Positions 3,381-9,156 of a DNA stretch of 64,000 nt are shown in pieces. The DNA is from Hymenobacter properus. GTDB taxonomy: Bacteria; Bacteroidota; Bacteroidia; Cytophagales; Hymenobacteraceae. The notes under the pieces are model-generated. The model did not search any database, was not told where the DNA came from, and saw only the letters and a program-made list of their open reading frames with translations. The translations under genes and the position numbers were made by a program. The stretch is from the NCBI RefSeq assembly GCF_015694735.1, contig NZ_JADQDP010000004.1:496001-560000 (forward strand), given 5' to 3'. The stretch's first letter is position 1. Each line of letters begins with the position of its first letter.

Positions 3381-4262
3381 TTACGCCAGTTCGCCCACGC
3401 CTTCCACGCGCTCGGCTACTTGCTGCATCAGCCACAGCGGGGTGCTGGTGGCGCCGCAGATGCCTACGGTGTGGGCGCCGGCCAGCCATTCGTCATCCAC
3501 CTCGTCGGCGTTTTCGATGAAGTAGCTGCGCGGGTTCACGGCGTTCACCACCGAGAACAGGGCCTTGCCGTTGGAGCTTTTGCGGCCGCTCACGAAGAGC
3601 ACCACGTCGTATTCGGTAGCGAATTTGGCCAGGGCGGGCTCGCGGTTGCTCACCTGCCGGCAGATGCTGTCGTTGGCGTCGAAGCTGTCGAGCTGCCCAC
3701 CAGCGGCGGCAATGCGGGCTTCCATCAGGGCCTTCATCTTGTAGAAGCCGGCCGTGCTTTTGGTGGTTTGGCTGAAGAGCGTGACGGGGCGCGAGAAATC
3801 GATTTGGTCGAGGTCGGCCTCGTTCATCACGATAATGGCGCGGTTGCCGGTCTGGCCGGTGAGGCCGGCCACTTCGGCGTGGCCGGGCTGCCCGTAAATC
3901 ACAATCTGGCCGTTTTGGCGCTGGCTCAGGTCGAAGGCGTGCTTCACGCGGTTTTGCAGCTTGAGCACCACCGGGCAGCTGGCGTCAATCAGCTCCAGGT
4001 TGTTTTCGAGGGCCAGCTGGTAGGTTTCGGGCGGTTCGCCGTGGGCCCGGATGAGGACTTTGGTGTCGTGCAGTTCGGCCAGCTGCTCGCGGTCGATGAT
4101 GCGCAAACCCAATTGGTGCAGGCGCTCCACTTCCATGCGGTTGTGCACAATGTCGCCCAGGCAATAGAGGCTGTGGCCTTGCGCCAGCTCGTCTTCGGCC
4201 ATTTGGATGGCGAATTCGACGCCAAAGCAGTAACCGGAATTTTTATCAATCGTGACCTTCAT
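3381..4262 (-). CDS. ispH: 4-hydroxy-3-methylbut-2-enyl diphosphate reductase
   Basis: 293 residues. IspH is the last enzyme of the non-mevalonate (MEP) isoprenoid pathway and uses a 4Fe-4S cluster to make IPP and DMAPP. The three cluster cysteines are visible at C12 (GYCFG), C96 (DASCPVV) and C201 (SICRQVSNRE). The diphosphate- and proton-relay residues also show: DIVHN (H40), HGEPPE (H74), YGQPGHAEV (H128) and T/S residues in SQTTKST. It lies downstream of cmk on the same strand. A TAACTTTG -7-like element in the gap suggests it can also be expressed on its own. Confidence 0.96.
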   Translation of the reverse strand: MKVTIDKNSGYCFGVEFAIQMAEDELAQGHSLYCLGDIVHNRMEVERLHQLGLRIIDREQLAELHDTKVLIRAHGEPPETYQLALENNLELIDASCPVVLKLQNRVKHAFDLSQRQNGQIVIYGQPGHAEVAGLTGQTGNRAIIVMNEADLDQIDFSRPVTLFSQTTKSTAGFYKMKALMEARIAAAGGQLDSFDANDSICRQVSNREPALAKFATEYDVVLFVSGRKSSNGKALFSVVNAVNPRSYFIENADEVDDEWLAGAHTVGICGATSTPLWLMQQVAERVEGVGELA

Positions 4263-4366: not shown

Positions 4367-5059
4367 TTAATCCCAGCCCGCCGCAAACAGCGCCGACGAA
4401 GCCCTATCGAGCACAAAATCGACCTGTTCGGTGATGGTGATGTGCGTGGTGTCGAGCAACACAGCGTCGGGGGCGCGGCGTAGGGGGCTCTCGGCGCGGG
4501 TCGAGTCGAGGTGGTCGCGCTTGCGCAGGTTCTCGATGATGTCCTCGAGGGGCACAATCTCGCCTTTTTCAGCCAGCTCCTCCTGGCGGCGCTTGGCGCG
4601 CAGCTCCACTTCGGCCGTCATGAAAATCTTCACTTCCGCATCGGGGAAAACGGTGGTGCCAATGTCGCGGCCGTCCATCACCACGCCGCGCTTGCGGCCC
4701 ATTTGCTGTTGCTGGGCCACCATGGCGTGGCGCACCATCGGAATGACCGACACCTCGCTCACGGCGTTGGAGATGCGCATCTGCCGGATGTCGTCCTCGC
4801 GGTTCACCCCGTTCAGAAACAGCTCGTTGCGGCCGGTGCGGCGGTTGCGGCGGAAGCTGATGTGGATGTCGTGCAGGGCCTTCTCGATGCCGGGCATGTC
4901 ATCGAAGCCAATCTGGTTTTCGAGCAGGTACAGCGTCACGGCGCGGTACATGGCCCCGGTGTCGACGTAGGCATAGTGCAGCAGCTGAGCCACGGCCTTG
5001 GCGGTGGTGCTTTTGCCGCAGGAAGAGTAGCCGTCAATGGCAATAACGAGTTGTTTCAT
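4367..5059 (-). CDS. cmk: Cytidylate kinase
   Basis: 230 residues. It phosphorylates CMP and dCMP with ATP. The P-loop is GYSSCGKST at residues 9-17, a Bacteroidota-type variant of GxxxxGKS. Other family segments are YVDTGAMYRAVTL, the NMP-binding region with EVSVIPMVRHAMVAQQQQMG, VVMDGRDIGTTVFPDA and the R-rich lid ELRAKRRQEEL. I start it at the ATG at 5059 (MKQLVIAIDG), which places the P-loop where the family has it; an upstream in-frame start at 5077 would add six residues. Downstream is ispH, an association seen in other bacteria too. Confidence 0.95.
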   Translation of the reverse strand: MKQLVIAIDGYSSCGKSTTAKAVAQLLHYAYVDTGAMYRAVTLYLLENQIGFDDMPGIEKALHDIHISFRRNRRTGRNELFLNGVNREDDIRQMRISNAVSEVSVIPMVRHAMVAQQQQMGRKRGVVMDGRDIGTTVFPDAEVKIFMTAEVELRAKRRQEELAEKGEIVPLEDIIENLRKRDHLDSTRAESPLRRAPDAVLLDTTHITITEQVDFVLDRASSALFAAGWD

Positions 5060-5090
5060 AACGACGCGGGCGGCCATTGGCCCCGCAAGA

Positions 5091-5495
5091 TTACGAAATC
5101 CAAGTCTTACGCGCAGCCGGCGGCGTCTTCAAGCGTTGGGGCACCGAGGCAAAAAAAGCGGCTACCGATGCCCTTTCTCCCTCATTTAGTTGGGAATTGA
5201 CCAAATGAAAGGGGTTGAAAAAAAATCTGCCGGCCATGCCCACGCCGGTGCTGCCGTCCTTGCCCGTGCCCCATTCACCGCCGTACACCTGCACCAGGCA
5301 CTGCCCCAGAAAGCAGCCCAGCGCCATGAGCACGCCCTCGCGCTCGGCGGCCGGCAAAATGCCCCGCTGGGCCTCGATAAAGTTGTCGAGGTGGGCCACG
5401 GCTTCGGCGTCAAACGCTTTCAGATTGAGCTGCTGGCGCACCTGCTCGGCGGCTTGCTGAATGGATTCGAGGGGCGTGGGGCTGGTATCGGGCAT
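5091..5495 (-). CDS. Conserved hypothetical cytoplasmic protein
   Basis: 134 residues with no signal peptide or membrane helix. It has an amphipathic N-terminal half (LESIQQAAEQVRQQLNLKAF; LDNFIEAQRGILPAAEREG) followed by LGCFLGQCLVQVYGGEW, a pattern I have seen in small uncharacterised proteins but cannot tie to a function. The Trp-Gly and FFNPF motifs suggest a compact globular domain. It lies 31 bases upstream of cmk on the same strand, so it may be the first gene of a cmk-ispH transcript. Confidence 0.6.
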   Translation of the reverse strand: MPDTSPTPLESIQQAAEQVRQQLNLKAFDAEAVAHLDNFIEAQRGILPAAEREGVLMALGCFLGQCLVQVYGGEWGTGKDGSTGVGMAGRFFFNPFHLVNSQLNEGERASVAAFFASVPQRLKTPPAARKTWIS

Positions 5496-5642
5496 AGGAA
5501 CAAAGCTGGTGGCGAAAGGGCCGGGCGCGGCCGGCTGGTTTGTAAGCTAACACGCTTAAGGGCGCCGGGGTTGTGGCAAGGATGCCTGCTCCGGCGTTTT
5601 CTGCTCAAACCGCTGGCTCGAAACCGGCAGGTCGCCGGGCGG

Positions 5643-6383
5643 CTAGTTACGCGCTCCCTTTTTATCGGCAATGTACTCGTTCAGCACCTTGGGCAGCTTT
5701 TCGGTGGTCAGCGAACCCCATTTTACTTCCTGGCTCAGGCGCGCATCGTCGGCAATTAGGGGTTCGACAATGGCCCGCAGCCGGCCGCCCGACTTCGGCA
5801 GGCTCACCCACTGCGGGCTGTCGTCGCGCTTGAGCACCCAGGCCTGCGTCATCTCGTATTCGGTCACGTTGGACTTGTAGCTGCCCCCGGCGCTGCCCCA
5901 GCTGGCGCCGTTGAATGTGGCATAACTGCCCTGGTGCACGGCATCGTCGCGCCGCATGGTGCCCTTAAGGTGGTAGAGCCCCAGGCCCGCTCCCACGGCG
6001 CCCACCCGCACAAAGGCAATGCGGTATTCCTGCTCGTCCTCGCCCACCACTACTTTGAAATCCTTCAGTACCACAAACGAGTCCTGCTTCATTACGAAAC
6101 TGCTGACGTCGAGCGGCGTGTAGGCGGTTTTATCGGTCAGGCCGACGGCCACAATCTTGTTGTAGTCGATGTAGGCAATGGGCACCTCCAGCGTGCTCCC
6201 ATCGAGCAGGTGAATGCGGCCCGGAACGGCCTCAGGCAGCTTATCGGGCACGTCGGCCGCCGATTTATTGAAGTTGTAGGTGTTCTTTTTCTGGCCGAAA
6301 GCATTGGTTTGCGCTTGGGCGTACCCGGCGCCAGCCGCCAGGCCAATAATGGCTACTGCGAGATGGAATAAAACTTTTGTCAT
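5643..6383 (-). CDS. Secreted protein of unknown function, paralogue of the next gene
   Basis: 246 residues from the ATG at 6383, which places a clean signal peptide (MTKVLFHLAVAIIGLAAGAG..AQA) at the start; an upstream start at 6404 would put seven charged residues before it. The mature part has PGRIHLLDGSTLEVPIAYIDYNKIVAVG, then DSFVVLKDFKVVVG and VRVGAVGAGLGLYHLKGTM, and a C-terminal alpha-helical segment (KWGSLTTEKLPKVLNEYIADKKG). Much of this is shared with the gene at 6693-7241, so the two form a tandem pair that arose by duplication. Location is probably periplasmic or surface. I do not recognise a named family. Confidence 0.7.
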   Translation of the reverse strand: MTKVLFHLAVAIIGLAAGAGYAQAQTNAFGQKKNTYNFNKSAADVPDKLPEAVPGRIHLLDGSTLEVPIAYIDYNKIVAVGLTDKTAYTPLDVSSFVMKQDSFVVLKDFKVVVGEDEQEYRIAFVRVGAVGAGLGLYHLKGTMRRDDAVHQGSYATFNGASWGSAGGSYKSNVTEYEMTQAWVLKRDDSPQWVSLPKSGGRLRAIVEPLIADDARLSQEVKWGSLTTEKLPKVLNEYIADKKGARN

Positions 6384-6488
6384 GGCCTGCTCTTTGTGCC
6401 GCACAAGTTAAACCCATTGTCAGCATGCCCCCGTGTTTACGAAGCAGCACACGCATCATTTTTCCGGAAAAGGTCAGGGCTATCAGCT

Positions 6489-6692
6489 TTAGCCTTTTCG
6501 GGCGGCCGTGTACTGCGCCATCAGCTCCACCATTTTTTCGATGGTGAAGGCCGAGGGGAATAAGCGGTGTATTTTCTTGCTGAGCTCAGGCTGGTCGGCC
6601 GTCAGGGCTTCCAGCAGGTCGTGGGCGCTTTTTGTATGGGGCTGCAGCGTTTGGAAACCCGGGTTAGCAGCGGTTTTAAGCAGCAGTATCGC
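6489..6692 (-). pseudogene. Stranded 3' part of the amber-interrupted paralogue
   Basis: Directly after the TAG at 6693-6695, the same reading frame stays open for 67 codons and ends at TAA (6489-6491). The translated stretch (LLLKTAANPGF...KMVELMAQYTAARKG) lines up with the C-terminus of the paralogue at 5643-6383 (WVLKRDDSPQW...KVLNEYIADKKG). So this is the true C-terminus of the gene upstream, cut off by a nonsense codon. At the stop, the paralogue appears to have Gln, which fits a CAG-to-TAG change. Confidence 0.75.
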
Positions 6693-7241
6693 CTAGACTT
6701 TTTCTTCGTAGGTGCCGGTCTTTTTTTCAAGTAGGGCGCCCCCCGCGGCGCCCACAGCCACTCCTAGTAACCCGTAGCGTAGGTTTGCGCCAGCGCCCTG
6801 CAACATCGAAGCCTGCGTGCCGGGCGGCGCACTATACACGTCCATGGTGCCTTTCAGGCCGTAAAGCTCCAGCCCCTGGGCGGCCTGGTACACGCGCACC
6901 ATGGCGCAAGGGTAATGGGCCACCACGCCGTTAATCACCACATCAAACTTGCGCAGCACAGTAAATGAGTCGACCCCAATCACAAAGTTTTTGACCTGCA
7001 CAGCCGCAAAGTGCTGGGGCTCCGCAACGCCTTCGTCCTTCACCAACAGCTCATTGTCGCTCACCAAGCAAAGGATGCCGGTGCGGGAAATGCCATCGGC
7101 CAGCCGGTAGTGGCCCGGGGCGAATACCGGTGGCTTGGGTTTAGGACCGGCCGCCAAGACCTGCGTGGTGGCTAAAACACCCGCGAGGATGCTAAAAATG
7201 AATATCCGCCAATGCGTTCGGGAAGTTGCGAAGTCGCTCAT
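6693..7241 (-). CDS. Secreted protein, paralogue of 5643-6383, truncated by an in-frame TAG
   Basis: 182 residues from the ATG at 7241 (MSDFATSRTHWRIFIFSILAGVLA, a signal peptide). The middle matches its neighbour: DSFTVLRKFDVVING and VRVYQAAQGLELYGLKGTM against DSFVVLKDFKVVVG and VRVGAVGAGLGLYHLKGTM. A short hydrophobic glycine-rich stretch (YGLLGVAVGAAGGALL) precedes the end. The protein ends at TAG (6693-6695), but homology to the paralogue continues in frame for 67 more codons, so the present product probably lacks its C-terminal domain. This could be a recent pseudogene, a strain-specific mutation, a sequencing error or stop-codon readthrough. Function unknown. Confidence 0.7.
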   Translation of the reverse strand: MSDFATSRTHWRIFIFSILAGVLATTQVLAAGPKPKPPVFAPGHYRLADGISRTGILCLVSDNELLVKDEGVAEPQHFAAVQVKNFVIGVDSFTVLRKFDVVINGVVAHYPCAMVRVYQAAQGLELYGLKGTMDVYSAPPGTQASMLQGAGANLRYGLLGVAVGAAGGALLEKKTGTYEEKV

Positions 7242-7257
7242 TGGCGCAAAATAGCGG

Positions 7258-7419
7258 CTAGTGCCCGCAGGGGCAGGGCACACTCTTGCCGCCGCTGTGG
7301 TGCTTGTACCAGCTGGTTTTTTTCTGCTGCGCGGTGCGGCGCGCGCAGCCGCCCAAGAGGCTGCCCCCCAGCACGAGCAGTACCATCAGCAGGAGCCGCC
7401 ACGACGAAGATATTTTCAT
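7258..7419 (-). CDS. Small Cys/His-tailed lipoprotein
   Basis: 53 codons, ATG at 7419 and TAG at 7258-7260. The N-terminus is a lipoprotein signal: MKISSSWRLLLMVLLVLGG, then SLLGGC with the lipidated cysteine at residue 25. The mature peptide is only 29 residues and ends in SGGKSVPCPCGH, a CPC-G-H cluster that could bind a metal. A TAACTTTG -7 element (7438-7445) sits 19 bases ahead of the ATG. The gene is immediately upstream of the truncated secreted protein on the same strand. Codon use and the lipobox argue that it is real; the function is unknown. Confidence 0.65.
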   Translation of the reverse strand: MKISSSWRLLLMVLLVLGGSLLGGCARRTAQQKKTSWYKHHSGGKSVPCPCGH

Positions 7420-7437
7420 AGCCAATCTATTTTAACT

Positions 7438-7445
7438 CAAAGTTA
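7438..7445 (-). promoter_or_regulatory. Candidate -7 element for the small lipoprotein
   Basis: TAACTTTG on the minus strand matches TAnnTTTG. No good TTTG is seen 19-21 bases further upstream. It lies in the divergent gap shared with the adenine deaminase gene. Confidence 0.4.
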
Positions 7446-7497
7446 AGGTTCTTTGCGCGCCTGCCCATAGGCCGCCGCTTCTAATTTCCGCCAACGC

Positions 7498-9156
7498 ATG
7501 ACTCCTGCTTTTTCGCTCACTGCCAACGTCGTCGACGTTTTTGCCCGTTCCATTCAGCCCGCCATTGTTTCCGTCGAGGGCGGCCGCATTGCCAGCATCG
7601 CGCCCATTGCCGAAGCCGAGGCCGACTCCGCCCTGCCCTACGTGCTGCCCGGTTTCGTTGACGCTCACGTGCACGTGGAAAGCTCCCTGCTGGTGCCCAC
7701 CGAGTTCGCCCGCCTAGCCGTGACGCACGGCACCGTGGCCACCGTGAGCGACCCGCACGAAATCGGCAACGTGCTGGGCGTGGCCGGCGTGGAGTTTATG
7801 CTTGAAAACGCCGCGCATTCGCCGTTCAAGTTTTGCTTTGGCGCACCGAGCTGCGTGCCGGCCACGCCGTTTGAAACGGCCGGGGCCGAAATCACGGCTC
7901 AGGACATCGCCAAGCTGTTCGAGAACCCCAAAATCGGCTACCTGGCCGAGATGATGAACTGGCCCGGCGTGCTGCACCGCGACTCCGACGTGATGCAGAA
8001 AATTGCCATTGCCCAAGCCGCCGGCCGGCCCGTGGACGGCCATGCCCCCGGCCTGCGCGCCGACGATGCCGCCCACTACGCCAGCGCCGGCATCAGCACC
8101 GACCACGAGTGCTTCACGGCCGCTGAGGCGCTCGATAAGCTGGCTGTGGGCATGAAGGTGCTCATCCGCGAGGGCTCGGCGGCCCGCAATTTCGACGCGC
8201 TGATTGAGCTGCTGCCCGAGCACTACGCCCACCTCATGTTCTGCTCCGACGACAAGCACCCCGATACGCTGGTGCTGGGCCACATCAACCAGTTGGTGCA
8301 GCGGGCCGTGGCGCTCGGCAACGACGTGTTCCACGTATTGCGCGTGGCCTGCGTGAACCCCGTGAAGCACTACAACCTGCCCGTGGGCCTGCTGGGCGAA
8401 GGCGACCCGGCCGACTTCATCGTGGTGAAAAACCTGCGCGATTTTGAGGTGCAGCAAACCTACCTCAACGGCGTGCTGGTGGCCGAAAACGGAAAGTCGT
8501 TGCTGCCGGCTGCGCCCGTGGCCGTGGTCAACAACTTCCACGCTCAGCCCGTGACAGCGGCCGATTTCCAGCTGCCCGCACCGGCTTCCGCTCAGCCCAC
8601 GGCACGCGTCATTGAGTGCTTCGATGGCCAGCTCATCACGGCCCGCGTCGACCTGCCGGCCCGAATTGAAAACGGCTTGGTGGTTTCCAACGTGGCCGAC
8701 GATGTGCTGAAGCTGGCCGTCATCAACCGCTACCAGCCGGGCGTGGCCCCGGCGTTGGCGTTCATCCGCGGCTTTGGGCTGCAGCACGGCGCGCTGGCCA
8801 GCAGCGTGGGTCACGATTCGCATAACATCACCGCCGTGGGCTGCGACGACGAGAGCCTGGCCCGCGCCGTCAACCTCGTCATCGAGGCCAAGGGCGGCCT
8901 GGCCGCCGTGGGCGCCGACGGCCGCGAAATCCTGGTACCGCTGCCCGTGGCCGGCCTCATGTCAGACCAGCCCGGACCCGCCGTGGCCGAGGCCTACGCC
9001 GCCGTCGATGCGCTGGCCAAGCAGCTGGGCTCACCGCTGGGGGCGCCGTTCATGACGCTCTCGTTCATGGCGCTGCTGGTCATTCCCAGCCTGAAGCTGA
9101 GCGATAAAGGCTTGTTTGATGGCCAGCAGTTCACGTTTGTGGACGCCGTAGAATAA
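7498..9156 (+). CDS. ade: Adenine deaminase
   Basis: 552 residues, the normal size of the bacterial Ade family of metal-dependent amidohydrolases. It converts adenine to hypoxanthine for purine salvage. The metal-binding HVHVESS motif is at residues 57-63, right after VLPGFVDA. Further family segments are DPHEIGNVLG, VDGHAPGL, GISTDHECF and the MFCSDDKHPDTL block with the catalytic aspartates. The C-terminal domain has SSVGHDSHNITAVG and the closing FMTLSFMALLVIPSLKLSDKGL. The ATG at 7498 gives a start of the expected length. It is transcribed alone and diverges from the small lipoprotein gene. Confidence 0.95.
   Translation: MTPAFSLTANVVDVFARSIQPAIVSVEGGRIASIAPIAEAEADSALPYVLPGFVDAHVHVESSLLVPTEFARLAVTHGTVATVSDPHEIGNVLGVAGVEFMLENAAHSPFKFCFGAPSCVPATPFETAGAEITAQDIAKLFENPKIGYLAEMMNWPGVLHRDSDVMQKIAIAQAAGRPVDGHAPGLRADDAAHYASAGISTDHECFTAAEALDKLAVGMKVLIREGSAARNFDALIELLPEHYAHLMFCSDDKHPDTLVLGHINQLVQRAVALGNDVFHVLRVACVNPVKHYNLPVGLLGEGDPADFIVVKNLRDFEVQQTYLNGVLVAENGKSLLPAAPVAVVNNFHAQPVTAADFQLPAPASAQPTARVIECFDGQLITARVDLPARIENGLVVSNVADDVLKLAVINRYQPGVAPALAFIRGFGLQHGALASSVGHDSHNITAVGCDDESLARAVNLVIEAKGGLAAVGADGREILVPLPVAGLMSDQPGPAVAEAYAAVDALAKQLGSPLGAPFMTLSFMALLVIPSLKLSDKGLFDGQQFTFVDAVE

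Follow-up and report, generated by a model that had tools for sequence, protein, structure and literature searches.

Among bacteria, young nonsense pseudogenes are frames that are intact except for one premature stop, birth-and-death evolution is known for arrays of tandem paralogues, and systems that recode or read through TAG include amber suppression, pyrrolysine and TAG-recoded phages. We compared these systems with gene A, which lies in a 64,000-nucleotide stretch of the Hymenobacter properus genome (the window) and is interrupted by one in-frame TAG. Gene A resembles young nonsense pseudogenes in its single in-frame stop, the constrained-looking sequence on both sides of it, an intact orthologue in a related species and the absence of the gene from this locus in other relatives, and we know of nothing in which it differs from them. 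As in birth-and-death arrays, the copies around it (types A, B and C) vary among related species between fixed flanks. With the TAG recoding systems it has in common the in-frame TAG and the conserved coding sequence downstream, but unlike in those systems RF1 is present, no CTA tRNA was found, TAG is a normal stop and the stop is not conserved. We consider gene A likely (probability about 0.8) to be a young nonsense pseudogene, or a nonsense allele of this strain, within a fast-turnover array.

The full ancestral frame of gene A (6489..7241, minus strand) comprises 250 codons with one in-frame TAG, followed by TAA, and codes for a putative secreted protein with a hydrophobic N-terminus. It starts with the ATG at 7241 and is open for 182 codons (6696..7241) up to the TAG at 6695-6693; past this stop the frame continues for 67 open codons (6692-6492) and ends in TAA at 6491-6489, so that a C-terminal part of 67 codons plus TAA (6489..6692) is left stranded. 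These coordinates agree with the original prediction, which had described a gene ending at TAG and a frame running on for 67 codons to a TAA at 6489. Shuffling the mononucleotides of the extension 5000 times gave 594 sequences that were likewise free of stops; its open length is therefore weak evidence alone, and it is homology that lifts the extension above chance.

In this regard, both parts of gene A are homologous to gene C, its intact tandem paralogue of 246 amino acids (5643..6383, minus strand). The part before the stop shares 45 of 140 aligned residues with gene C (E 9e-14), and the 67-residue extension matches the gene C C-terminus at 17 of 64 (E 7e-6, in a single comparison), which bears out the proposed alignment of the extension with the end of the paralogue. 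Furthermore, the syntenic orthologue in Hymenobacter armeniacus BT189 (G063) is a stop-free protein of 247 residues with 70% identity across residues 11-250 of the gene A query, and over the extension the two align without gaps with 51 of 67 residues identical (76%). More distant orthologues are found in Hymenobacter sp. BT770 (G121; 42% identical) and Hymenobacter sp. ASUV-10 (G061; 39%). The stop is premature with respect to these intact orthologues and the extension is homologous, in frame, to the orthologue C-terminus; the homology of both parts to gene C together with the gapless match to H. armeniacus upholds the reading of this region as a split gene.

A search of 120 Hymenobacter genomes with the gene A protein gave 27 family matches in 22 genomes. 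Twelve of the 27 span the position of the TAG (6693..6695, minus strand) and the stop is present in the window copy only, while the remaining 15 end short of this position and are uninformative about the stop. Two of these short matches (G034 and G114) sit in open frames of only 201 amino acids, so that short distant family members may exist. The query in this search was the window protein alone, and genome-wide absence is to be read as a statement at that sensitivity; a profile search returned a weak extra family copy in the H. properus genome that the single-protein search had missed. This copy, a distant possible third paralogue on contig C7 (L111:561-1268; E 4e-4 and 8e-4 to the profile), has an open frame that ends in TAG. 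A second in-frame TAG in this paralogue was considered and rejected, since the alignment had simply run across the stop codon with which the paralogue itself ends.

According to the original prediction, the paralogue seems to have a glutamine at the stop position, which would fit an origin of the TAG by one C-to-T change. In our 9-row alignment, however, the stop column holds Met (H. armeniacus), Leu (BT770) and Val (ASUV-10) in the orthologues and Thr in all five B- and C-type rows, including the gene C of the window, in which the glutamine sits one residue beyond this column. A C-to-T change from a glutamine codon is not supported because of these residues, and we rejected it on the orthologue codons, the nearest of which, the Met codon of H. 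armeniacus, differs from TAG at two positions.

Selection on the two parts of gene A was estimated from pairwise NG86 comparisons with the single H. armeniacus orthologue, at a dS near 0.9, and the values are therefore approximate. The extension gave a dN of 0.165, a dS of 0.849 and a dN/dS of 0.195 (95% of resamples 0.078-0.410; 299 of 300 usable), similar to the upstream part once its first 30 codons are set aside (0.177; 0.093-0.280), while the whole upstream part gave 0.253 (0.153-0.404). A dN/dS of about 0.2 indicates purifying selection on both halves of gene A in this comparison. Since the extension combines this low dN/dS with no indel against H. armeniacus, it probably remained coding sequence over most of the period after the split from that species, and the stop is probably recent. 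Branch-specific residue changes, polarized with two outgroups, did not show a significant excess on the H. properus branch in the extension (6 versus 2 on the H. armeniacus branch, compared to 13 versus 13 upstream; Fisher p 0.26).

At 5091-9156 of the window, genes of an uncharacterised family of putative secreted proteins form a tandem array, and the copies present between its fixed flanks differ across related Hymenobacter. Downstream, the conserved flank starts with a gene for a 134-aa protein (5091..5495, minus strand), followed by genes at 4367-5077 and 3381-4262 that we take to be cmk-like and ispH-like, respectively. Upstream, a gene on the plus strand (7498..9156), presumably encoding an adenine-deaminase-like protein, is conserved in the locus comparison, and a small conserved ORF of 53 amino acids (7258..7419, minus strand), with a lipoprotein-like start as judged by eye, marks the upstream edge of the array. 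This small ORF has a conserved Cys-Pro-Cys end (KSVPCPCGH), and its DNA was among the parts of the query that were matched in many genomes of the genus.

Between these same flanks the content of the array differs. The H. properus locus carries the broken A and C, H. armeniacus carries A, B and C, G123 carries B and C, and G131 only C; B is present in G064 and G019, A in ASUV-10, and A beside an additional ORF (D, a candidate relative only) in BT770, while the G105 locus has a match to part of ORF D. No array copy was detected in 11 of the 20 loci compared (tblastn, E 1e-4, within the locus stretch only), these 20 being chosen, mostly for their better matches, out of 115 genomes (of 120) that were matched at the DNA level. 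Among the loci with no copy detected, G073, G029 and G090 have more than 1 kb between the flanking genes. Outside this locus, the genomes of G074 and G105 contain a family match. Judged by three flanking genes, G087 is the closest to H. properus among the 19 other genomes (92.5% nucleotide identity; grouping support 91). Its locus has no array copies, with about 155 bases separating the small upstream ORF from the gene that follows; this genome has lost the array or never had it. G087, G024 and G104 are also absent from the 22 genomes with a family match (E 0.001, 120-genome search). G123 groups with H. armeniacus (support 100) and keeps B and C, and no A copy was found at its locus (tblastn, E 1e-4). 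In the flank tree the G131 row is shorter (1107 bases), as its contig ends there. Because G087 is without the array and G123 keeps B and C without a detected A, the A copy appears dispensable over the time that separates these species, and its absence in relatives may reflect loss.

To consider what the truncation removes, we turned to the intact H. armeniacus protein, for which an AlphaFold2 model built with 9 sequences in the alignment has a mean pLDDT of 75.3 and a pTM of 0.65. The model begins with a hydrophobic helix at the N-terminus, continues with a beta domain and a stretch of low confidence (residues 140-169), and closes with a strand (172-185) and three C-terminal helices (200-209, 214-223 and 230-246). 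The gene A stop corresponds, from the alignment to the H. armeniacus protein, to model residue 179, inside strand 172-185, and the 182-residue product would be without half of this strand and all three C-terminal helices. The predicted structure suggests damage to the gene A product, and a loss of function would be expected from it. As for the family itself, none of the five proteins submitted had a Pfam or NCBIfam match over the curated cut-off (sub-threshold matches only), searching PDB sequences with a profile yielded no match up to an E of 1, and a literature search at the level of listings and abstracts returned nothing on this locus. In a fold search, model residues from about 37 to 91 gave only weak matches to small beta barrels, the Hfq/Sm-like type being a candidate (best Foldseek E 0.057; best fold comparison YaeO, with a weak Z of 4.4 and an rmsd of 3.4 over 58 residues). 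From the N-terminal helix and the beta domain we would guess that the intact family is a secreted or envelope protein.

We propose that a Hymenobacter family of putative secreted proteins is maintained between conserved genes as tandem copies of types A, B and C, in varying number, and that the A copy would have gained its TAG in the lineage of the window genome. This would shorten the product from 250 residues to 182, with the break inside a predicted beta strand and the loss of three C-terminal helices, and too little time would have passed for the rest of the frame to decay.

A sequencing or assembly error, with a sense codon in the strain and an intact gene A, would also account for a frame that is otherwise open and constrained-looking and for a stop that appears in the window genome only among the 12 matches spanning the position. 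The assembly, however, consists of 9 contigs with a completeness of 100 and a contamination of 0.91, and as TAG lies two positions from the codon of the nearest orthologue, a one-base miscall would need a different ancestral codon; we regard such an error as unlikely. Quite unlikely, too, is a functional shortened protein, in which the 182-residue product would be kept and the C-terminal part would be dispensable. The low dN/dS of the upstream part (0.177 without the first 30 codons) is in line with it, although most of the time that this value covers may predate the stop. Against it, the stop falls within a predicted strand rather than at the edge of a domain, four residues of the C-terminal part (L199, A215, L220 and Y244) belong to invariant columns of the 9-row alignment, and none of the 11 other matches spanning the position ends there. 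It seems improbable that this species still expresses, and benefits from, the 182-residue form or a mix of the short form and an occasionally extended one; if so, the TAG would represent adaptation in a secreted member of the family and not decay.

Lastly, we considered programmed or code-wide readthrough of TAG yielding the full-length gene A protein. The constrained look of the extension would by itself fit readthrough and a young stop equally well. Against readthrough, RF1 is present, full-length and above the curated cut-off, and no CTA anticodon was found among 42 tRNA matches (41 named by ARAGORN; the 42nd, cut by a contig end, is Asp-like by eye), a list that is probably incomplete, with no tRNA-Ile(GAT) or tRNA-Ala(TGC) seen. 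The lowest-scoring of the tRNA matches in this genome (42.4 bits; contig C1, L077:51-127) was called Asp with the unusual anticodon ATC by ARAGORN, and its D-arm is Leu-like by eye. Among 50 long ORFs of the window (putative genes, picked by length, GC3 and non-overlap), TAG is used most often as the stop, ending 23 of them, gene A's own stop included, as compared to 19 for TAA and 8 for TGA, and the tandem neighbour gene C itself has TAG as its terminator, at the point where three orthologues stop as well. In addition, the stop of gene A is absent from the other 11 matches spanning the position, with sense codons in three orthologues, and it interrupts a predicted strand. Readthrough or recoding is thus highly improbable and was rejected as unsupported by RF1, the tRNAs, stop usage and stop conservation; it is not needed to explain anything observed. 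The original prediction had left a very young pseudogene, a sequencing error and readthrough side by side: the first has gained from the intact H. armeniacus orthologue, the occurrence of the stop in 1 of 12 matches and the low dN/dS, and the last has lost ground to RF1, the absence of a CTA anticodon from the 42 tRNA matches and a stop that is not conserved.

For annotation, the 182-residue ORF should be taken as probably a fragment. As a young nonsense pseudogene, gene A would carry its stop as the result of an ordinary event, with no bearing on the genetic code, and would illustrate cleanly how the decay of a gene begins in an array of secreted-protein genes that varies between related Hymenobacter species.
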